The notes below the pieces were generated by a model. It was not told where the DNA came from and searched no databases. It worked only from the letters and a program-made list of their open reading frames with translations. This document shows, one piece after another, positions 7,043-32,693 of a stretch of DNA of 40,309 nucleotides. Both the position numbers and the translations under genes were made by a program. The number at the start of each line of letters is the position of its first letter. The stretch's first letter is position 1. Source of the DNA: Patescibacteria group bacterium (lineage in GTDB: Bacteria > Patescibacteriota > Dojkabacteria > JAHIVN01); the NCBI GenBank assembly GCA_018816645.1, contig JAHIVN010000100.1:1-40309 (forward strand), read 5' to 3'.

Positions 7043-8959
7043 TTATTGTTGTTTAAGTTTACTAACAGTTCCCTTGTCGGCATCAACTTCGACATAGTCT
7101 CCATCCTTCAAAACGCTGGTCGCATCCCCAGTCCCTACAATACATGGTATGTTCAATTCCCGACTGATGATAGCTGCGTGAGAAAGCATCCCACCTTGGT
7201 TTGTAATTATTGCTTTTGCTTTTCGGCATGCGGAAATCAATTCAGGACCAGTTGTATCTGCAACAAGTATTTGCCCTTTCTTCATTGATTTTATAAGTGT
7301 TGCTATTTCTTTCGTATTTGCAAAGCCAAACTTGAGTACTTTCACCTCCCCACGGACCTTTCCACTACTCGCAACTTGCCCCTTCAGTACAGACGCTTCT
7401 TCATTTGCTCTTTCTCTCATTTCTGCTATTGCTATTTTCGCTCTTTTGCCGTACGTATTTGTCACTTTTCCATTATTACTCCCTGAGATGTAAGCTACTT
7501 TCCTTTCCCTTAGTGTCTTCTCGCTTAATTTGGTACCGTCAAACAAGTCTATCACTTCTGAAATAGAATAAAGATTTAAATCCTTAGTTGGAATATTGAA
7601 GCTCTCTGAGATTTTTTCTAATAGTCGATCATAGTAGCTATCATCCGCATATACCTCATTCAAGAAGCTCCTTTTCTTGTTCTTGAACTCGCCAAAATCA
7701 GGAAAACTTGACTCAAATCTTTTTCTTTTCTTTGGATCTTTGAAAATTAATTCTGTGTAAAAAAATTCGGTCTTTGAATAAAAAAAGTAAGTCTTTGAGA
7801 TTAATTCCAAGAACCTTTGAGTAGTTCCTTTTCTTACCTTACCGTCATCCAAGACCTCTTCAAAATACTCCTTCGAATTTTTTACATGACTTGTGAAAGA
7901 TGCTCTATACTTCTGAATCGCATCTTTCTGGCTATATAATTTTAAACCCTCTTCGCAAGTATTTCTTATTATTCTGTTAGGGAGATAACTTATCCACAGT
8001 TTATTGGAAAACAAAAGGAGTGCATCCAGTTTTTTGTAATAACCCATAAACAAGTCAGAACCTAAAAACGAGGCGGGACCCTCCACTTCAAAAAGCTTTT
8101 GATAGCCATGGATATTAATAAATAGACGGTCAGAACTACATTGACTCTGATGATGTTTTCTACCTGTTACGGGTCGAGCTTGGAGAATATATAGCTCATC
8201 TCGTTCGTACGTCCATTCAACATCCACCGGATAGCTATAATGATCTTCTATCTCTAGCACCGTCTTGGCGATGGTTATTACTTTTGAATCAGCTATTTTC
8301 TGTTTGTTTTGTAAATGTTTAGATACCTGTTTCTGGTCGGTATCTCCGCCCTTTTTGACTACCCCCATAATTCGTTGCTTCCCAATTGTCCTTGATACTA
8401 TTTTGGCCTGCGGCTTGCTAACAGTATACGTGTCTGGTGTTACCTTCCCAGAGACAATCATTTCCCCAAGCCCCAGGACGACTTCAATTATGATCTCGTT
8501 CTTATTTCCTGTGACAGGATTTAAAGAAAATCCTACTCCCGACACATCACTGTTTATCATTTCTTGAACAATAACAGCAACTCTCACATCTTTCGGGTCA
8601 ATCTTATTTGCCTTGCAGTACGCAACCACCCGAGAGTTAGCGATCGAATTACGACACTTTTTAATTCTTTCAATAAGTTCATCTTTGTTCACATTCAAGA
8701 AGGTGTTAAACTGTCCTGCAAAACTTGCGTCCTTTGAATCCTCAGCTGTTGCACTACTACGTACGGAGACACGATTAAGCCTAAGGTTGTCATATTCTTT
8801 ATAGATTCGTTTTTCATCTTTCTGCAAATCAGTTTCTGGGAGCACAACAAAACCTTTAGGGACATTCATTCCAATTTTGATAAGCTCTCCAAGGTTAGCT
8901 GCTTTACCACCGACAGAATTTATATCTTTAACTTGAACCTTGTCTAGATTTATTATCAT
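7043..8959 (-). CDS. PEP synthase-like protein with ATP-grasp and phospho-His domains
   Basis: The N-terminal part (about 1-275) is the PPDK/PEP-synthase ATP-grasp domain: GGKAANLGEL, VSVRSSATAED followed by ASFAGQ, and LYILQARPVTG with its nucleotide-binding Glu/Gln. The C-terminal 100 residues are the swivelling phospho-histidine domain, GGMLSHAAIISRE, with His594. In between lie about 230 residues with no PEP/pyruvate TIM barrel. The order ATP-grasp, middle domain, His domain is that of rifampicin phosphotransferases and related dikinases, but at 638 residues it is over 200 shorter than those enzymes. The residue two before the His is Leu, as in that subgroup, not the Thr of PPDK. The gene follows its partner by 4 nt and is surely co-transcribed. 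The substrate is unknown. Confidence 0.8.
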   Translation of the reverse strand: MIINLDKVQVKDINSVGGKAANLGELIKIGMNVPKGFVVLPETDLQKDEKRIYKEYDNLRLNRVSVRSSATAEDSKDASFAGQFNTFLNVNKDELIERIKKCRNSIANSRVVAYCKANKIDPKDVRVAVIVQEMINSDVSGVGFSLNPVTGNKNEIIIEVVLGLGEMIVSGKVTPDTYTVSKPQAKIVSRTIGKQRIMGVVKKGGDTDQKQVSKHLQNKQKIADSKVITIAKTVLEIEDHYSYPVDVEWTYERDELYILQARPVTGRKHHQSQCSSDRLFINIHGYQKLFEVEGPASFLGSDLFMGYYKKLDALLLFSNKLWISYLPNRIIRNTCEEGLKLYSQKDAIQKYRASFTSHVKNSKEYFEEVLDDGKVRKGTTQRFLELISKTYFFYSKTEFFYTELIFKDPKKRKRFESSFPDFGEFKNKKRSFLNEVYADDSYYDRLLEKISESFNIPTKDLNLYSISEVIDLFDGTKLSEKTLRERKVAYISGSNNGKVTNTYGKRAKIAIAEMRERANEEASVLKGQVASSGKVRGEVKVLKFGFANTKEIATLIKSMKKGQILVADTTGPELISACRKAKAIITNQGGMLSHAAIISRELNIPCIVGTGDATSVLKDGDYVEVDADKGTVSKLKQQ

Positions 8960-8963
8960 GTGT

Positions 8964-9899
8964 TTATTTTTTTATAATCCTAACAATACCTTCATTTGCA
9001 TTCACCTCAATATAATCACCATCTTGTAAAACTTTTGTAGCAATTTCTGTCCCCACTACACATGGTATATTAAGTTCTCGAGACAAAATGGCAGCGTGGC
9101 ACAACATTCCACCCTCATCGGTGATAATTGCCTTTACATTCTTGATGATAGATAAAAATCCTGCTGAGGTCATCTTGGTAACCAATACTTTTTGACTGCT
9201 CAAAGATTCAACACACGTTGGATCAAATATTATCTTTACGGTCCCTTCCGTAATACCACCTCCTGCAGGAATTCCCTTCAACTGATCTGAATCTTTTGAT
9301 AACAACTGATTATCCGATTTTCCAATTTTAGTAGCATACTTATTGATAAGTTTAGATAACTCCTTTGCTTCATCAAATTTACCAGCTTGTTCGAATTTGT
9401 CTTTAAACACACTAATATTAGCCAATATTCGTCTTCCTTTTTCTGGACCATATCCTGCACGAGTGATTAACAAAGGTAATAAAAAAGAGTATTCCTTAAT
9501 AGATCCTTGCTCACTTTGAATGTGGACCGTCCTACTTGAAGTAATCTGGTATTTGTATGAGGTTTTAATCCAATCGGCAAACTGAGTTTTAGAAAAAGGT
9601 ACCAAGTCAAAATTGTAACCAGTCGTCTTTGTAAAATTCTCATACTCATCAAAGAACTTGGACTCAATAGGTGGATGAATTTCTATTGCAGAGGGATCAA
9701 AATTCCAAGGGATTAGGTCTTTCTTTAAGAGAATATTGAAGTGCCCGTCACGCAGAGGGGTATCATATCCGAGTAGTACATAAGGATATTGCCCTATCAG
9801 CATCCAGTTGTTTACATCTATACCCCAATCTTTTAACAAGTTTGTTAAGCTGGATAAAACGGAATTAATCCTGTTAATCTTTGCCGAAGTTTTTTTCAT
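8964..9899 (-). CDS. phospho-His domain protein with divergent N-terminal domain
   Basis: Only the C-terminal third is recognisable. It is a PEP-utilising-enzyme mobile domain with GGMLCHAAILSREL (His268 from the ATG used here) that closely resembles the end of the downstream 638-residue protein. No ATP-grasp domain is present. The N-terminal 200 residues include LIGQYPYVLLGYDTPLRDG, faintly like a minimal nucleotidyltransferase start but lacking the paired Asp residues; this comparison is weak. The gene lies 4 nt upstream of the ATP-grasp protein. An in-frame GTG at 9929 would add 10 residues; the ATG at 9899 (MKKTSAKINRINSV) was preferred. It could receive or relay phosphate from its partner. 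Confidence 0.65.
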   Translation of the reverse strand: MKKTSAKINRINSVLSSLTNLLKDWGIDVNNWMLIGQYPYVLLGYDTPLRDGHFNILLKKDLIPWNFDPSAIEIHPPIESKFFDEYENFTKTTGYNFDLVPFSKTQFADWIKTSYKYQITSSRTVHIQSEQGSIKEYSFLLPLLITRAGYGPEKGRRILANISVFKDKFEQAGKFDEAKELSKLINKYATKIGKSDNQLLSKDSDQLKGIPAGGGITEGTVKIIFDPTCVESLSSQKVLVTKMTSAGFLSIIKNVKAIITDEGGMLCHAAILSRELNIPCVVGTEIATKVLQDGDYIEVNANEGIVRIIKK

Positions 9900-9929
9900 T
9901 ACTTGCTGAATGATGTTAACACACTTCAC

Positions 9930-23830: not shown

Positions 23831-25231
23831 CTACTTCTTACCTTTCTTAGAGGGAGGCCCGGCTACTGTTCCAAATTTCAAGTTTACACCCTGCTTCTTT
23901 TTCCTTTTATTTAGAACATACCAAACACCAAGAATCGGCCATACTGTAAGGTTCAGAATCAACAGCCCTTTCCAAAAGCTGAAATCTTTCTCTCCTGGCT
24001 CTCCGTCTGGTCCATATATCGTTATCACTTCCTCGTTTGAATCTCTCGACTCAAGATCTCCCTTGACTGTCCTAACAACATAAAAATATGTCTTTCCCTC
24101 CTCTACTTCCCCATCTTTATAACTTGTCTTATCTGCACCAATCTCAGTAAGAAAAACATAAGAAGTGCTATCCTCCTCACTCTTATAAATCCTGTACCCA
24201 TCTATCCCCATAGTACTTGAGTGCTCCCATTTCAACTCGGCATAGTATTTATCCTGATCGATACCTGAAATAACTTCCAGATTAGACGGCGGGGAAACTT
24301 CGTCGGAAATGTTTTCTTCTGTTTTAGGTTCCTCCTCTTTATCTTCATCTTCGCCTGACATCTTTGTTTTAAACGTTGCTTCGAGAGACTCTGACTTATT
24401 TCCATCCATATCCTCGCTTACCACTTTGAAATGGTATTTTGTATCCGGCTTTAAATCAGTTAAACTTACACTGTGTGTGGATGTGTAATCGCCGCTTCCG
24501 GCTACTTTGCCATACGATGAACTTTCTCCGTATTCAACAAAGCTAGTTGAACTCTCATCAGTTTTCCATCCTATTTTGGCTGTTGTTTGTGAAATTGTCG
24601 TTATCCCAATGTCCGAAATAACCGGCGGAATTTCATCCGGTACAGAATAGGTAATAGCCAGTGCTGGTTTATTTACACTTTCCCGGCTCCCAAAGGTATG
24701 ATCATAATCAGCTGAATCAGCTGATTTAGTTGACTCAAAGTATAAGCCATAGTTCATCGATACGTTTGAAATCCAGGTTTCGACCAGATCAGAAAAATCT
24801 TGAGAAAAAGTAACTTGTCCAACATTACTCCCTACGGACTGTGCTCCATATACAACACCCAAATCTACTCCTGGTTTCGAAGCCCCCGAAACTGTTGATT
24901 CGCTCCAAGTAGAAGTTACCTTGTAGACGTTTAATGTAACAACATTGCCATCTACCTCACTCTGATGAAGAGATAAGCTTGCCGATTGTATAACAGCATT
25001 TGAAGGAACACTCCCAAGATCAAACTTTACTAGAAAAGCCGAAGAAGATGTCGCGTCATTTCGGCATTTAAGCGTCACTTCAGAGCCATGGACAGTACTA
25101 TCCGAGTCAACTATAGTTGCATCTGCAGAAGGATAGAGACTTACAGATTTGGTATCCTGCGCAAAAGAACCCTGTGGGAATAATGATAAAATAAAAGCAG
25201 TAATAATTGTGCTGCCTAGAAGCTTTTTCAC
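23831..25231 (-). CDS. secreted DNRLRE/FN3 surface protein with C-terminal anchor
   Basis: Residues 1-24 form a signal peptide (MKKLLGSTIITAFILSLFPQ, cleavage near SFA-QD). Residues about 30-195 resemble a DNRLRE domain: SLYPSADATI, then AFLVKFDLGSVPSNAVIQSA and SLHQSEVDGN. Two fibronectin type III domains follow (about 200-295 and 320-415). Near the C-terminus a membrane helix, GLLILNLTVWPILGVWYVL, precedes a strongly basic tail with RKKK and KKGKK. No LPxTG is visible, so the protein is held by its helix and is not an obvious sortase substrate. An adhesin or structural surface role is likely. Confidence 0.78.
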   Translation of the reverse strand: MKKLLGSTIITAFILSLFPQGSFAQDTKSVSLYPSADATIVDSDSTVHGSEVTLKCRNDATSSSAFLVKFDLGSVPSNAVIQSASLSLHQSEVDGNVVTLNVYKVTSTWSESTVSGASKPGVDLGVVYGAQSVGSNVGQVTFSQDFSDLVETWISNVSMNYGLYFESTKSADSADYDHTFGSRESVNKPALAITYSVPDEIPPVISDIGITTISQTTAKIGWKTDESSTSFVEYGESSSYGKVAGSGDYTSTHSVSLTDLKPDTKYHFKVVSEDMDGNKSESLEATFKTKMSGEDEDKEEEPKTEENISDEVSPPSNLEVISGIDQDKYYAELKWEHSSTMGIDGYRIYKSEEDSTSYVFLTEIGADKTSYKDGEVEEGKTYFYVVRTVKGDLESRDSNEEVITIYGPDGEPGEKDFSFWKGLLILNLTVWPILGVWYVLNKRKKKQGVNLKFGTVAGPPSKKGKK

Positions 25232-25723: not shown

Positions 25724-26299
25724 TTATCTATTTAGAAGCTTCAGATTTACATTCTTGAGATATTTGTACCCGCTATTGTAGGCAAGTTCTGTTGCAACAA
25801 ACACCGCTGGAACTATTATCATGTTTCCGATCAGTTGCGGAATCAGGAAAGGAACTCCCATTTCATAACTAAGCAACAGTCCTTCTAATGTCTTCGGATA
25901 CAGGTTCGAGACTAAAACCACACCAAAGTTTGTCCACAGGAAAAAGAAGACTGTGAACACAATCCCCGCAAGTTCTGACAACAAAGCTGTTTTGACTATT
26001 GCAGGAACTTTGCTCAAGAATCTGTCCGCCTGCTTTCCCCTCATTAGTTTACCGAGCAAATGCGCTGACCCGAAAGCGGACCAGGTAAAGATAAATACTG
26101 GCGAGTTTCCGATGATTAGATCCGACACAATCATGATACCTAAAGGAATAGCGTATGAAGAATTTTTTCGCATGAAAAAGGCCCCTGCAAGACATAGAGC
26201 TGTCACAAATTCTACATTTGGAGCGATATGCCACACTGTTCTTGTAAGCACTCCAAATGAAATATAGACCAGTACGAAAACGATATCTTTTATTTTCAT
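25724..26299 (-). CDS. DUF6580/ECF S-component-like membrane protein
   Basis: The 191-residue protein has five or six membrane helices and resembles DUF6580 proteins, relatives of ECF-transporter substrate-binding (S) subunits. Typical marks are AFFMRKNSSYAIPLGIMIVS followed by DLIIGNSPVFIFTWSAFG. It is the second gene behind a cobalamin riboswitch and follows the DUF4430 protein gene after 49 nt. From that context I infer that it carries cobalamin or a related corrinoid. No EcfA or EcfT energising subunits lie in this window, so they would have to be encoded elsewhere or not be needed. Confidence 0.75.
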   Translation of the reverse strand: MKIKDIVFVLVYISFGVLTRTVWHIAPNVEFVTALCLAGAFFMRKNSSYAIPLGIMIVSDLIIGNSPVFIFTWSAFGSAHLLGKLMRGKQADRFLSKVPAIVKTALLSELAGIVFTVFFFLWTNFGVVLVSNLYPKTLEGLLLSYEMGVPFLIPQLIGNMIIVPAVFVATELAYNSGYKYLKNVNLKLLNR

Positions 26300-26348
26300 C
26301 TATTAAAAATAATAATTAAGTTAATACCAAATTCTTTAGCAGCAGGTC

Positions 26349-26858
26349 TTAAAATTCTACATTCTCAACCTGTAATGTCAACTTGTCTCCAGCAGCTGCC
26401 TTATAGTCGCCAACACCTACCATACTCATCTCGCCATTTACAAGAAATGCCCAGAACTTTGTTTTCACATCAGGATGGTAGTTATTTACAGATGAAACAA
26501 AAACTCCAAAGTCGCTCTCTTCATAGTCAAATGAAAACTTATCGCTCCGCTCATCCAGCATTTTCATATATTCAAACGCCGTCTTTCCTTTTTCAAAACC
26601 AAGGCAATAATTCCTAACTTCCTTCTGCCCCTGAGTCACAACTTCAGAATCAAAATCTATACAGTCCTTCCTCACAGAAATATTTACTTCCCAGTCTGTT
26701 ACTTCAGCTTTTTGCTGCTCTCCCAAAACAGAGTCGTCACAAGTCTTTCTGTCGTAGCCGATCTTATATGATATGACCATTAAACCAACCGTAATGATAC
26801 CGGCAAGCAAACCCCATTTGAGCTGCCCTAAGTCAAGCTTTTTTATCAAGTTGCCCAT
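26349..26858 (-). CDS. membrane-anchored DUF4430 (transcobalamin C-like) protein
   Basis: An N-terminal membrane helix (about residues 15-31) anchors an extracytoplasmic domain. That domain ends in KFWAFLVNGEMSMVGVGDYK followed by AAAGDKLTLQVE, the core of the DUF4430/transcobalamin-like C-terminal family. In other bacteria such domains are found with B12-uptake components, and the animal relatives bind cobalamin. The length of 169 residues fits one domain. It is the first gene after a cobalamin riboswitch with its own terminator, which strongly supports a surface B12-capture role. The ATG at 26858 is 80 nt past that terminator. Confidence 0.78.
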   Translation of the reverse strand: MGNLIKKLDLGQLKWGLLAGIITVGLMVISYKIGYDRKTCDDSVLGEQQKAEVTDWEVNISVRKDCIDFDSEVVTQGQKEVRNYCLGFEKGKTAFEYMKMLDERSDKFSFDYEESDFGVFVSSVNNYHPDVKTKFWAFLVNGEMSMVGVGDYKAAAGDKLTLQVENVEF

Positions 26859-26937
26859 AAATAAATTTATAAAAAATTAATTCGGGCAGAATTACCAAAC
26901 AACTATTCGGCACTAAACACTTTTTAATAATTCACTA

Positions 26938-26969
26938 GCAAAACAAAAATCCTCCCAAGAGAGAGGATT
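26938..26969 (-). terminator. riboswitch expression-platform terminator
   Basis: On the minus strand AATCCTC (26969-26963) and GAGGATT (26954-26948) form a stem around an 8-nt loop, followed by TTTTTGTTTT. It stands about 54 nt after the aptamer and 80 nt before the DUF4430 ATG. AGGAT at the 3' side of P1 could pair with ATCCT of its 5' arm, giving a simple antiterminator. Confidence 0.75.
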
Positions 26970-27022
26970 ATGCTTATTCTGAACTTAGTTCTCCACTTTC
27001 TTGCTCGAGAAAATACTATGAT

Positions 27023-27163
27023 CCTTATCTAAGTTTTCAGACTTTAATCCCGCTAAGCGGGAAACTGTTGCGGCACAGTGAGGGAATTTCACCCAGGAAC
27101 GAAATCTCATTCCCGTAATGAAGTGAATTTATTCTACTTCACTACTGCTTGCCTCAGATAAAG
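27023..27163 (-). ncRNA. cobalamin riboswitch aptamer
   Basis: The minus strand carries the conserved cobalamin-aptamer core: GGGTGAAATTCCC, then CACTGTGCCGCAACAGT, then AAAGTCTGAAAACTTAG. The outer strands CTTTATCTGAG (27163-27153) and CTTAGATAAGG (27033-27023) pair over 11 bp (two or three G-T pairs) as P1. A perfect TCCCGC-TTA-GCGGGA hairpin lies inside. An intrinsic terminator follows, so high B12 should stop transcription into the DUF4430-DUF6580 genes. The remaining parts of the 26859-27389 gap show no gene. Confidence 0.88.
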
Positions 27164-27389
27164 ACATTTGCTGTTGTTAATGTCTCTTAACGAGCCGATT
27201 CTTGATCAGATTCGTTAATATATCAGACGATATCAGTATAAAGCCCACTTGTCAAATGTTTAAATTAGTTGGATAGAATGATGGAGGAATGTACTCGACC
27301 CAGGTTAGTATTTCTATCTACTATTCGTTAAACATACATAATACAAAACAACCGTTGAACTATATTGCAGCTAATTTTTGTGTTTCACT

Positions 27390-28301
27390 CTAGTTCACCA
27401 GATTCCTCGGCTTCTGCTTAATTACCGAAATGATGCTATCCACCCACACCTCAACTTTCTCCTCAAGCGTTTCTCTTGTAAACCAATTGACATGAGGCAT
27501 TATAAAGATATTATCCTCTGGACTGATAGATATATTCTCTTGATTATCGCTGGCAGCTCCATAAAGCTTTCCCTGTTTAACGCTTCGAACTAAGCTCTTC
27601 CAATCCACTATTCCCCTATGCGAAATATCTATGAGCGAGGAGGTCTTCTTCAAAAGATCCATTTCCTCCTTTGAGACAAAGTTGGATGTTTTGTCGTTCA
27701 TTTCCAAACAAACAAAGACAAAGTCAGAAACTTTTAGCAGCTTCTTCAATGCAAGATATTTATAGTTCATATTTCTGGATTTTTTGGACCAGTAAACAAC
27801 CTTCATACCTAAGCTATCAGTTAACTGTGCAATTCTGCTCCCTATATTTCCGAGCCCTATGATTCCAGCCGTCTTCCCTTTGATTTCTGCTAATAAATTT
27901 TCGGGAATATAACTAAATTCTTTTTGCTTCATAATAACTGGGAATCTTCTAGCAACTGCAAACATCATGCATATTGCGCCCTCAGCAACAGCATTTGTTG
28001 AACTTGCAGGAACATTGGTCAATGAGATTCCCTTCTTTCTAAGTGCTTTGCCGTCAACCCATTCAAAGCTTGTTGTCGATAGGCATACCCCTTTCAGATC
28101 AGGTATCTCCGCCAAGAACGCGCCTGGAAGAATCCAGTTCATAGGCTCTGGGAACGGAGCAAGGATTTTATCACCATCTTTTAACAAGGGCTTAATCTTT
28201 CGTATATCTAACGAATCATCCTCGACAAATTCTACTTCAGCATATTTTCTTAGCCGCTTGAGCTGCTTTTCCGGAATATTTATTCTTTTAGTGATAAACA
28301 T
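27390..28301 (-). CDS. D-2-hydroxyacid dehydrogenase homologue (paralogue 1)
   Basis: A 2-hydroxyacid dehydrogenase-fold protein with NAD(P)-binding GIIGLGNIGSRI. Arg is kept in IDISHRGIVD and His in MPHVNWFTRET; the catalytic Glu region (SDNQENISI) is altered. The end of the second strand, VVYWSKKSR, has Ser/Lys rather than Asp, which suggests NADP(H). A TTG at 28316 would add five residues; ATG 28301 (MFITKRINIPEKQL) looks like the natural start. It is divergent from a TrmB regulator gene, an arrangement repeated at 30829-32693. It may be enzymatically active; the substrate is unknown. Confidence 0.82.
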   Translation of the reverse strand: MFITKRINIPEKQLKRLRKYAEVEFVEDDSLDIRKIKPLLKDGDKILAPFPEPMNWILPGAFLAEIPDLKGVCLSTTSFEWVDGKALRKKGISLTNVPASSTNAVAEGAICMMFAVARRFPVIMKQKEFSYIPENLLAEIKGKTAGIIGLGNIGSRIAQLTDSLGMKVVYWSKKSRNMNYKYLALKKLLKVSDFVFVCLEMNDKTSNFVSKEEMDLLKKTSSLIDISHRGIVDWKSLVRSVKQGKLYGAASDNQENISISPEDNIFIMPHVNWFTRETLEEKVEVWVDSIISVIKQKPRNLVN

Positions 28302-28398
28302 TACTTTCACAAACAAAATAACCTAATAATTTAACAATAAACCGTCAGTGTCCCAGCTTGCCTGCCTCTGGAAGGCTCTGATCTAATATTCCATGTTA

Positions 28399-28452: not shown

Positions 28453-29244
28453 ATGGACCAACAAAAAGTAACGGCAACACTTCTGCAACTTGGACTCGAT
28501 AAAAAGGAAGCTGAGATATATATCACAACGCTAAAGTCGTCTTCTCTATCTACCACACAACTATCAAAAGCAACAAACATTCCCAAAACAACTATTTATC
28601 GATATATAGAAGCTCTAATACAAAAAGGAATCCTGGATAAAGTTGTAGGGCCAAGAGGGATGCTTGTGAAAGCAAAGGAGCCGCAGAATCTTGACCTTTT
28701 GCTCTCAGAAAAACTGGGAAATGTAAAAATGGCAGAACACTTATTTCCACAGGTAGTCGGATTTCTAGACACCTTAAGAACGAATAAAAAGCACAAAACT
28801 GAGGTGCGTTATTTCGAAGGAAAGACAGGAATCAAACAACTACTTTGGAATACACTTCGAGCTGAAAGTAAAGATCCGGTTGTTGGTTATGGCTGCAAGA
28901 CTTGGAATGATTATGTCGGCAGAAGTTTTGCAGAAAAAGTACGATTTGAATACATAAGAAGGGGGATAAATAATAAGGAAATTCAGAATGATAAGATACT
29001 AGGCAAAAAGTTTACTGACGTTCAACAATATATCACTTCAAATTACCGCTTGAGAACAATACCTAGGTCGAAAATGAAGATAAACTATAATACCATAATT
29101 TACGATGAATTTTTCTCATTTTACAGCATGCATCAGGATGAAGTCTTTGGTATAGAAATTCAAAACGCTGAGATAGCAAGAAGTCAGCGACAGATATTTG
29201 AACTGCTCTGGGAGATAGCTGAGGAAGCAATAGTACAACGATAG
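28453..29244 (+). CDS. TrmB-family transcriptional regulator 1
   Basis: The N-terminal winged helix (LLQLGLDKKEAEIYITTLKS, then LSTTQLSKATNIPKTTIYRY) is the TrmB/sugar-specific regulator domain. A linker helix and a C-terminal domain of about 170 residues (EVRYFEGKTGIKQLLWNTL) follow. The C-terminal part is shared with the second regulator at 31911 but does not show the full sugar-binding domain of archaeal TrmB. It is divergent from dehydrogenase paralogue 1, which it may regulate. A hairpin overlaps its stop codon. Confidence 0.85.
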   Translation: MDQQKVTATLLQLGLDKKEAEIYITTLKSSSLSTTQLSKATNIPKTTIYRYIEALIQKGILDKVVGPRGMLVKAKEPQNLDLLLSEKLGNVKMAEHLFPQVVGFLDTLRTNKKHKTEVRYFEGKTGIKQLLWNTLRAESKDPVVGYGCKTWNDYVGRSFAEKVRFEYIRRGINNKEIQNDKILGKKFTDVQQYITSNYRLRTIPRSKMKINYNTIIYDEFFSFYSMHQDEVFGIEIQNAEIARSQRQIFELLWEIAEEAIVQR

Positions 29245-29863: not shown

Positions 29864-30832
29864 TTAATTTACAACATTTGTCGGCTTCCCCTTACAAAAA
29901 TCTGTGATATTTCCTATCACTATTTCTGCTAGTCTCTCCAACCCTTCCCTCGTATACCATGCAATATCTGATGTCACAATTGCATTTGGAAGATTCATGA
30001 TGCCTAGGAGGTAAATCGGAGACTTCTTATAATCCTTGGGATGAATTCTTATTGTGTCAAGCCCTGCTCCTACTATCCTGTTACTTAAAAGCATTTTATA
30101 AAGGTAATCCATGTCGACAAGTTCGCTTTGAGATGTATTTATAAAAATTGCAGAATTTTTCATTAGTTCCAGCTTTGATTTCTCAAGCAGCTGCCTTGTG
30201 GAGTCATTGAGAGGAATATGCAACGAAATGAAGTCGCTCTTCTTTAACAGGTGATTTAGTGAAACAAACCCGTTTAGACCAAGCCTCTTAGCTCTTTCAT
30301 CCGAAGGATGGGCTGTATGCACTAAAACTTTCATCCCAAGCCCCTGTCCTATTTGAATTGCCCTGCTTCCAATATTCCCAGCACCGATAACTCCCAGAGT
30401 TTTACCGCTTACTTCAGTACCGCAAAACAAATTAAATGCCCAGATTCCTGCTTTGGCAAATTCTGCTATCTGCTTTGTATTACGGCAAAGAGATATGATC
30501 ATACTGAAAACAAACTCTGCAACAGATTGTGAAAAAACACCGGGACAGTTACAGACAACAATCCCCTTCTTCTTTGCATAATCTATGTCAATATTGTGAA
30601 AACCTGTAGATGAAGTTATTAAACATTTCAGTTTTTCACACCTATCTATTACCTCCCTATTCACCTTTGAGATTAAATCGAAAACACCCACATCAGCATT
30701 ACGAAGTCTTTGAATTAAATCGTCTTTGGAGAAAGGAATGCTCTCATAGTAATCAACTAAAAATCCACTCTTACGAAGCTTCAAAATATGTTCCCTTTTC
30801 AATGCTACATTGTCTGTAACGCTGATTCTCAT
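29864..30832 (-). CDS. 2-hydroxyacid dehydrogenase-like protein lacking catalytic residues (paralogue 2)
   Basis: This protein has the full fold of a D-2-hydroxyacid dehydrogenase, with Rossmann motif LGVIGAGNIGSRA and the family segment SVAEFVFSMIISLCRN. The active site is altered, however. The Arg motif (normally NTARG) reads INTSQSELVD, so Arg becomes Gln. The usual PHIA reads TSDIAWYTREG, so His becomes Asp. The Glu segment reads LDTIRIHPKD. The NAD(P) strand ends HTAHPSDER, without Asp. The gene overlaps its upstream paralogue by 4 nt (ATGA), so both are translated together. A sensor or NAD(P)-binding regulatory role is more likely than standard catalysis. Confidence 0.82.
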   Translation of the reverse strand: MRISVTDNVALKREHILKLRKSGFLVDYYESIPFSKDDLIQRLRNADVGVFDLISKVNREVIDRCEKLKCLITSSTGFHNIDIDYAKKKGIVVCNCPGVFSQSVAEFVFSMIISLCRNTKQIAEFAKAGIWAFNLFCGTEVSGKTLGVIGAGNIGSRAIQIGQGLGMKVLVHTAHPSDERAKRLGLNGFVSLNHLLKKSDFISLHIPLNDSTRQLLEKSKLELMKNSAIFINTSQSELVDMDYLYKMLLSNRIVGAGLDTIRIHPKDYKKSPIYLLGIMNLPNAIVTSDIAWYTREGLERLAEIVIGNITDFCKGKPTNVVN

Positions 30833-31830
30833 TTTTTATAGTTTAATACTTTAAAATTTTCTCCTTTAACAAATTTCTCTACAATATCAATTGTCATCTT
30901 ATTTTTTTGTTTTATAGCTTCTTCGGTATTGAAGGCTATATTGCTTGTTATGAGAACATTTGGAAGAATGGATATCCCCTTTCCCTTTGTCTTGAACTTG
31001 TGTTCTAGCTGCAAGGGATTCAGGTCAAGCGCTGCGGAATATATTTTTTTTTCTAGAATTAAATCATAAAGCGAGGCTATGTCTATAGCATTTAGACTAT
31101 CACAAATGCTTATAAGGATAGTCTCGTTTTTGATTAGAAGAAGCTTTTCCTCTCCAATCAAAAACTTCCTCCCATAATATTCTTTCGGATCAAGCCGGAC
31201 ACAACAAATGATAATGTCCGACTCACCGAGAACCTCTTTCAGAGTTGAGAATTTCTCAATACGAAGTCTAATTGCTCTTTTCCGGCTAGGCCTTTCTGTA
31301 CAGACCCTGATATTCAAGCCAAAACCTTTGGCTATAGGTATCAGTGCGCTTCCTACCCGCCCCGCACCAACAATTCCGATAGTTTTCCCAGCAAGCTGAC
31401 TACCTTGTACCGCAAACACATCATATCCTCCAATTTTTGCATACTGGTTAGCCGTATGAACGTTTCGTAACAAAGTAAGAATTTGTGCAAATACAAACTC
31501 TGCTGTAGATTCGCTGGAGTAATCTTTGATATTTGCCACCTGAACCTTCGTTGAGTGTAGAAGACCTTGAGACAACCCCTCGGTTGAAGTGCCGCTTCGA
31601 ACAGCTAGTTTCAAATTCGGACATTTTCTAATAAGTCTTCTAGATAAAGATACCAGTGTGTCCAGTATAGCTATATCAGCAACTCCTATATTCTCAATGA
31701 TTTCCTCCTCTCGAGTAGGAATGCTATCACCACTGAATGTATAAGCAATATCGACAAATGAACCCAGTCGTCGAATATCTTTTTCACTAAAATGTACATT
31801 ATCTGCGATACTGCATTTATATCTTCTCAT
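30829..31830 (-). CDS. 2-hydroxyacid dehydrogenase-like protein lacking catalytic residues (paralogue 3)
   Basis: Fold and length (333 residues) match the family, with IGIVGAGRVGSALIP as the nucleotide-binding motif and ESTAEFVFAQILTLLRN. The catalytic Arg is missing (ISICDSLNAID) and the His position reads TSNIAFNTEEA, with Asn. The NAD(P) strand end, VCTERPSRKRA, has basic residues suited to NADP(H). It is the first gene of an operon with paralogue 2 and is divergent from TrmB gene 2, with only 80 nt between the starts. Like its neighbour it is probably not a conventional dehydrogenase. Confidence 0.8.
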   Translation of the reverse strand: MRRYKCSIADNVHFSEKDIRRLGSFVDIAYTFSGDSIPTREEEIIENIGVADIAILDTLVSLSRRLIRKCPNLKLAVRSGTSTEGLSQGLLHSTKVQVANIKDYSSESTAEFVFAQILTLLRNVHTANQYAKIGGYDVFAVQGSQLAGKTIGIVGAGRVGSALIPIAKGFGLNIRVCTERPSRKRAIRLRIEKFSTLKEVLGESDIIICCVRLDPKEYYGRKFLIGEEKLLLIKNETILISICDSLNAIDIASLYDLILEKKIYSAALDLNPLQLEHKFKTKGKGISILPNVLITSNIAFNTEEAIKQKNKMTIDIVEKFVKGENFKVLNYKK

Positions 31831-31910: not shown

Positions 31911-32693
31911 ATGAACAAGGATTCAAATTCTGAAGTACTACAAAAATTAGGTTTAAATGACAAAGAAATCGTGATTTACTTGCATCTTACAAATTCTGGA
32001 GTTCAGAGTATTAAACAGATATCAGATGCTACATCCGTTAACAGAACTACTGTCTACCGCTATCTCGAATCGCTAATAAAAAAAGATCTTATAGAATGGA
32101 TTATCGGTGAGCGTGGACGAAAGGTGCAGGTAACTCCGCCAAATAACATCAAATTATACTTATCCGAGAAGAAACAAAGGTTAGAGAATCTTGAAAAAAC
32201 AATCCCCTCATTGATATCTCAGCTTCAGATGATCAAGCCTATTGAAAAATTTGCCACGCAGGTTCGTTATTATAAAGGCGAAGAAGGAATCAAACAAATA
32301 ATTTGGAATACTCTTCAAACGAAAGGACCACTTTATAGCTATACCCCATTAGGAAGAAGAGATGTTATCAATCCCGATTTTGAAGATCGGTTTGAACATG
32401 AATGGGCCAGAAGAAAGCTCATCGATAAGGTGATAACAAACGAAACGCACCTTGATTATTTCAGAAAGAACTTAGTAGATTCCTATAAGAAAACCCTTGA
32501 GGTAAGAATCCTACCTTCTGATAAGTTTTATATAACAAGCGACACTAGCATCTATAACAACACAGTCTCAATTATGTCCTTTGAAAAGGAGGCCTTAGCT
32601 GGGGTCGAAATCGATAACAAGGAAATGGCGAGCAACCAAAAATCTATCTTCAACATCGTCTGGGAGGTAGCGAAACCGTTTAAACAACTGTAA
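31911..32693 (+). CDS. TrmB-family transcriptional regulator 2
   Basis: A paralogue of the regulator at 28453, with the same order: winged helix LGLNDKEIVIYLHLTNSG then ISDATSVNRTTVYRYLESL, a basic linker, a coiled helix, and the shared C-terminal domain beginning VRYYKGEEGIKQIIWNTL. Length is 260 residues. It is divergent from the dehydrogenase-like operon and carries a palindrome in its own promoter, so autoregulation and control of that operon are likely. The ligand is unknown; the paired dehydrogenase-like proteins might supply or sense it. Confidence 0.85.
   Translation: MNKDSNSEVLQKLGLNDKEIVIYLHLTNSGVQSIKQISDATSVNRTTVYRYLESLIKKDLIEWIIGERGRKVQVTPPNNIKLYLSEKKQRLENLEKTIPSLISQLQMIKPIEKFATQVRYYKGEEGIKQIIWNTLQTKGPLYSYTPLGRRDVINPDFEDRFEHEWARRKLIDKVITNETHLDYFRKNLVDSYKKTLEVRILPSDKFYITSDTSIYNNTVSIMSFEKEALAGVEIDNKEMASNQKSIFNIVWEVAKPFKQL

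Follow-up and report, generated by a model that had tools for sequence, protein, structure and literature searches.

A leader RNA of the cobalamin riboswitch type and the two genes behind it, encoding DUF4430 and DUF6580 proteins, probably form a B12-repressed salvage operon in the genome of a reduced Patescibacteria member of the Dojkabacteria lineage, with the two proteins acting as an importer that has no ECF module and supplies the class II ribonucleotide reductase NrdJ (a reading to which we give a probability of about 0.86). The RNA family, the gene families, the folds, and the linkage were established by computation, as was the lack of matches to the alternative systems sought. The operon lies on the minus strand of a 40,309-nt stretch of DNA (the window) from a draft genome of 1.65 Mb (140 contigs, 91% complete), in which each of the two genes is present in a single copy. 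All of the parts described in an earlier note on this DNA were found in their places on that strand, as follows.

27227-27255, minus strand: promoter-like site, a candidate only (TTGACA-N17-TATCGT, the second hexamer being preceded by TG; about three such sites are expected by chance in the region)
27011-27165, minus strand: cobalamin-type riboswitch aptamer, by fold, family membership, and sequence
27064-27096, minus strand: conserved core of P4 (GGG/CCC, TGAAATT loop) and P5 with a GCCGCA loop, by hold-out model R1 and P4 covariation
26998-27011, minus strand: P13-like strand TTCTCGAGCAAGAA (consensus TCCCGAGCAGGA), kept in relatives, the proposed antiterminator arm
26948-26969, minus strand: intrinsic terminator, AATCCTCTC-TCTT-GGGAGGATT and then TTTGTTTT
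26349-26858, minus strand: gene for a DUF4430 protein of 169 aa (Pfam PF14478, E = 4.8e-13, 49.8 bits against a cutoff of 23.8)
25724-26299, minus strand: gene for a DUF6580 membrane protein of 191 aa (Pfam PF20221, E = 8e-28, 98.1 bits against a cutoff of 27)

The genes flanking the locus encode a 2-hydroxyacid dehydrogenase (27390-28316) and a CBM96/fn3 protein (23831-25231). Two other features of the window were recorded. Between 27390 and 32693, two TrmB-like regulators—one confirmed by Pfam (28453-29244) and one whose likeness was judged by eye (31911-32693)—lie among 2-hydroxyacid dehydrogenase-like genes (27390-28316, 29864-30832, and 30829-31830). Tandem PEP-utilising/pyruvate-phosphate-dikinase-like genes (7043-8959 and 8964-9929) share, by eye, a similar C-terminal segment that resembles a swivelling domain.

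The membrane protein had been described in the earlier note as ECF-S-like, and both its fold and its sequence kinship bear this out. An AF2 model of DUF6580 built from a 72-sequence alignment (pLDDT 91.4) had ECF S-components as all of its ten best Foldseek matches (RibU, PanT, FolT, ThiT, and others; probability 0.80 to 1.0), at TM scores of about 0.5 to 0.6 and an E value of 0.03 at best; CbrT was not among the 50 matches listed. When the family profile was searched against the PDB, the sole sequence matched was 6fnp_A (E = 1.1e-6, residues 6 to 163). Entry 6FNP is ECF-CbrT, a B12 ECF transporter from Lactobacillus delbrueckii (PMC5997447), and chain A is presumably its CbrT S-component, judging from the chain length of 182 aa and the S-component-like match. 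DUF6580 thus appears, from sequence and model, to be a membrane protein of S-component fold that is related to CbrT and probably transports B12.

DUF6580 and CbrT share the S-component fold, profile similarity, and B12 as the indicated substrate. In contrast to CbrT, which requires an ECF module, DUF6580 occurs in a genome where EcfT was not found, and it is accompanied by DUF4430. Poor alignment with CbrT also affects several invariant residues of DUF6580 (F119, T123, N124, G126, V127, Y134, G140, P150, and F151). BtuM (PMC6072759) resembles DUF6580 in being a B12-linked S-component whose host organism lacks an ECF module. However, the profile search of the PDB gave no match to BtuM, and two alignments of the family contained no invariant or near-invariant cysteine and no equivalent of BtuM Cys80. 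By sequence, DUF6580 is closer to CbrT, and yet it is BtuM-like in context, without EcfT and without the BtuM cysteine.

The partner protein begins with a membrane anchor helix (residues 10 to 34), which is followed by a beta domain. The DUF4430 family profile matched transcobalamin-1 in the PDB (E = 5.6e-8) as well as transcobalamin-2 and intrinsic factor. Its AF2 model (mean pLDDT 84.8, with the beta domain above 90) gave Foldseek matches to 2bb5, 2pmv, 4kki, and 5no0 and resembles the beta domains found in the human proteins transcobalamin, intrinsic factor, and haptocorrin. These results agree with the claim of a membrane-anchored, transcobalamin-C-like protein; as far as profile and model indicate, DUF4430 is an anchored C-terminal beta domain of the transcobalamin/intrinsic-factor type. 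It shares the domain fold and the sequence profile with transcobalamin, intrinsic factor, and haptocorrin but differs from them in being a membrane-anchored beta domain alone; the N-terminal alpha6-alpha6 barrel of the full family is absent from the 169-aa window protein. Several relatives have lipobox-like N termini. A secreted 613-aa protein in another genome (L234:5501-7342, minus strand), with the same riboswitch upstream, joins an alpha-alpha toroid to DUF4430, an architecture like that of complete transcobalamin or intrinsic factor, here in a Patescibacterium.

The B12-dependent enzymes that the earlier note had suggested looking for are present in the genome, which encodes the adenosyltransferase BtuR (E = 1.8e-48), three NrdJ catalytic modules, and three B12-binding radical SAM proteins. 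Two of the complete NrdJ modules lie in a single 1,606-aa open reading frame (contig C56, L226:703-8073, minus strand) on either side of a HAM1/RdgB-like NTP-pyrophosphatase domain. Beside it are a third NrdJ of 588 aa that stands alone and a protein of 205 aa that is weakly similar to dCTP deaminase. The active-site cysteines, C...CGEQPLLP(Y/F)E(S/A)C, are retained in each of the three modules, and similar three-NrdJ sets were seen in nine relatives, one of them of the same genus.

Among candidate importers, an ordinary BtuCDF system was rejected because FecCD/BtuC (PF01032) had no match in this genome (nor in two relatives, one of them congeneric), and BacA-type import was rejected because the SbmA_BacA family was not found. 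No candidate B12 importer other than the DUF4430-DUF6580 pair was found. The EcfT partner was likewise sought in vain: EcfT/CbiQ (PF02361) had no match in the genome and was over the cutoff in 0 of 115 relatives, compared to 10 of 14 controls detected with the same profile. DUF6580 is therefore apparently not part of an ordinary ECF transporter. This absence poses a problem for a carrier of the CbrT type, since solitary CbrT without an ECF module does not support uptake (PMC5997447), whereas BtuM does support uptake without one (PMC6072759). It is conceivable, though we consider it unlikely, that DUF6580 does work within an ordinary ECF transporter whose EcfA/EcfT motor has diverged beyond the reach of Pfam CbiQ or is encoded in the missing 9% of the genome. 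The draft state of the assembly and the dependence of CbrT, the nearest characterized relative, on an ECF module (PMC5997447) would favor this. The contrast between relatives and controls argues against it, as does the fact that no EcfA/EcfT-type gene was recognised in the neighbourhoods examined. DUF6580 is either a solitary B12 carrier of a second type, assisted by DUF4430, or the partner of a motor that was not recognised. The broader proposal that DUF4430-DUF6580 is a widespread, ATPase-free, ECF-independent B12 importer of Patescibacteria, in which a tethered bacterial transcobalamin beta domain passes B12 to a solitary CbrT-like S-component and BtuR and NrdJ drive the trapping, seems to us evenly balanced.

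The two genes are consistently linked to each other and to B12 use. The DUF4430 gene is immediately followed by the DUF6580 gene in 20 of 21 neighbourhoods, the window counted, and the same order was found in 45 of 50 loci from Patescibacteria, DPANN, and uncultured lineages and in all 18 actinomycete loci (lineage groups taken from record titles). Of those 50 loci, 29 also contain NrdJ and 13 contain BtuR, with confirmation by Pfam; a PduO-type adenosyltransferase is found at locus L123. Across 115 relatives, DUF6580 co-occurs with NrdJ (19/23 versus 31/92; P = 2.5e-5), with BtuR (P = 2.5e-4), and with the RNA (P = 5e-8), all by Fisher's tests in which kinship is ignored. In Omnitrophota and other gram-negative bacteria, DUF6580 lies next to a TonB receptor gene that carries a Cobalamin riboswitch; the order at one Omnitrophota locus is BtuR, DUF6580, Cobalamin riboswitch, and TonB receptor. 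B12 acquisition by a reduced bacterium had been put forward as a notable find; the pair and its RNA are real, but the pair is widespread across Patescibacteria and thus not peculiar to this genome.

Other arrangements were also observed. In one relative (L211; G110:C5:307942), the riboswitch precedes the DUF4430 gene, and DUF6580 is encoded at another place, next to NrdJ and BtuR; even in separation, the two thus seem to belong to one system. At six loci of Gottesmanbacteria and their relatives, L123 among them, the operon behind the riboswitch is longer. It encodes an unannotated protein of 700 to 880 aa, DUF4430, DUF6580, a protein of 152 aa, and a HerA/TraD-like ATPase, and it is situated just after NrdJ and an adenosyltransferase.

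Cobalamin riboswitches elsewhere in bacteria also control cobalt transporters and corrinoid salvage, so the pair might handle a related corrinoid or precursor (cobinamide or alpha-ribazole) or cobalt, not complete B12. CbrT, too, takes cobinamide (PMC5997447). We regard this reading as improbable: the beta domain and CbrT bind corrinoids, the linkage to BtuR and NrdJ requires a complete corrinoid, and CbiC had no match in this genome or in any of the 115 genomes searched, so that cobalt alone would be of little use. That the pair is a B12 sensor or receptor, not a transporter, is improbable as well. S-component folds are found in receptors and sensory proteins as well (PMC11109136), and no motor protein was found, but neither protein carries a signalling domain, the genes are linked to NrdJ and BtuR, and other B12 importers were sought in the genome and none was found.

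The leader RNA folds as a cobalamin-type aptamer, with P1 (27165-27153 paired with 27033-27021), P4, P5, P6, and two hairpins at the P3 position. GGGTGAAATTCCC and ACTGT-GCCGCA-ACAGT together span 27096-27064 on the minus strand, and this core pattern, with up to three mismatches allowed, occurs once in the window versus 0 expected in shuffles. The Infernal comparison with Rfam that the earlier note had proposed fell below every gathering cutoff. No family reached its cutoff for the RNA at 27165-26948 (minus strand) in a search of the window, the best cobalamin-clan score being that of AdoCbl-II (RF01689; 13.8 bits versus a cutoff of 36.5), and RF00174 had no match over the whole genome. Rfam alone would therefore not have confirmed a riboswitch here.

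Comparison with relatives was more informative. Whole-leader MAFFT alignments were dropped because they were poor 3' of P5, where P6 and the linkers vary in length, and therefore only a 45-column core was modelled. Covariance model R1, made from 18 homologous elements that all come from outside the genus of the window, had its match at precisely 27096-27064 (E = 2.8e-7 in the window, at 28.1 bits); this match was the only one over the 1.65-Mb genome (E = 1.2e-5). P4 covaries at all five of its pairs (21 aligned cores, each pair altered on both sides). Double-change cells numbered 39 over the whole structure, compared to 14.3 in shuffles (0 of 500 reached 39), and the covariation signal was lost when the partner strand was slid. 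The motif GCCGC[AT]ACNGT is present in 12 of 21 leaders, the window counted.

When 97 relatives were searched with RF00174, 14 genomes yielded 15 matches in all, of which six were over the cutoff; six genomes have a match, mostly below the cutoff, immediately upstream of the pair and in the same orientation. Cobalamin RF00174 elements adjoin DUF6580 in Bacteroidota, Omnitrophota, and Ignavibacteria (63 to 112 bits), AdoCbl-II elements do so in Levy- and Woesebacteria (45.6 and 38.1 bits), and a further Cobalamin/AdoCbl-II match beside DUF6580 in relatives scored 32.8 bits. The core of clan CL00101 (P4, P5, and GCCGCAACNGU) is supported by covariation and is common to the window RNA and these Rfam-positive relatives. 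The window RNA resembles RF00174 and RF01689 in P4, P5 with its GCCGCA loop, a J6/3-like AGTCTGA, a downstream P13-like element, and a terminator, but it has other peripheral helices and has diverged below both gathering cutoffs. Patescibacteria cobalamin riboswitches thus escape present Rfam cutoffs.

The family model and the Rfam-positive relatives beside the same genes support the earlier identification of the leader as a cobalamin-type RNA, which probably binds cobalamin. The claimed core motifs and P1 were likewise recovered, with the correction that P1 has 13 bp, including G-U pairs, and not the 11 first counted. A chance look-alike, with the terminator belonging to the upstream gene, would fit the subthreshold Rfam scores but is hardly credible given the hold-out model, the covariation, and the repeated occurrence of such RNAs ahead of this operon across many genera.

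Just downstream of R1 matches in nine relatives, we observed an unannotated family (or two) of soluble-looking proteins of about 400 to 590 aa with an E(F/I)SP motif and, in several, a zinc-ribbon-like C terminus. The family had no Pfam or NCBIfam match and nothing credible in a PDB profile search; it may be a new B12-related family.

The intrinsic terminator that had been claimed after the aptamer is present at 26969-26948. In all 14 leaders examined, the best downstream partner of the P13-like strand was the terminator hairpin, at its 5' arm and loop, and the pairing was better than most shuffles in each, marginally so in the window (P = 0.097); since the leaders are related, these pairings are not independent. 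The pattern fits a P13-like strand that acts as an antiterminator, available when no ligand is present and sequestered once B12 binds. Some Woesebacteria-type leaders have the P13-like element directly before the start codon, which suggests translational control in these cases.

From these results we infer ligand binding, the direction of switching, handover, transport, and the energy source as follows. When B12 is scarce, P13 (CUCGAGCAAGA) would pair with the terminator at its 5' arm and loop, allowing read-through and production of both proteins; when B12 is bound, the aptamer would hold P13, the terminator would form, and the pair would be switched off. DUF4430, anchored in the membrane and facing outward, would capture a corrinoid with its transcobalamin-like beta domain and hand it to the CbrT-related DUF6580, which would bring it into the cell. 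BtuM and solitary BioY work alone. Because the genome has no recognised EcfT, DUF6580 may also act alone, or with an unrecognised motor. Inside the cell, BtuR would adenosylate the corrinoid, and the class II ribonucleotide reductases would use the product to make deoxyribonucleotides, with the B12-binding radical SAM enzymes as likely additional users.

The overall interpretation in the earlier note is therefore supported, as the computable tests that it proposed came out in favor of it, with the corrections given above. Searches of the open literature found DUF6580 mentioned in no paper, no paper joining Patescibacteria, cobalamin, and riboswitch, and no earlier report of a DUF4430-DUF6580 module. 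Cobalamin riboswitches, S-component carriers, and transcobalamin-like binders are already known kinds; the variant seen here is new. The recurrence of cobalamin-type RNAs beside both genes is consistent with the suggestion that the RNA is evidence for a B12 role of two poorly described families, and these two families of domains of unknown function gain a concrete, testable role. The pair also sharpens the question of how S-component proteins might work without an ECF motor. For streamlined bacteria that need B12 for DNA precursors yet are unable to make it, the operon offers a possible route of acquisition.
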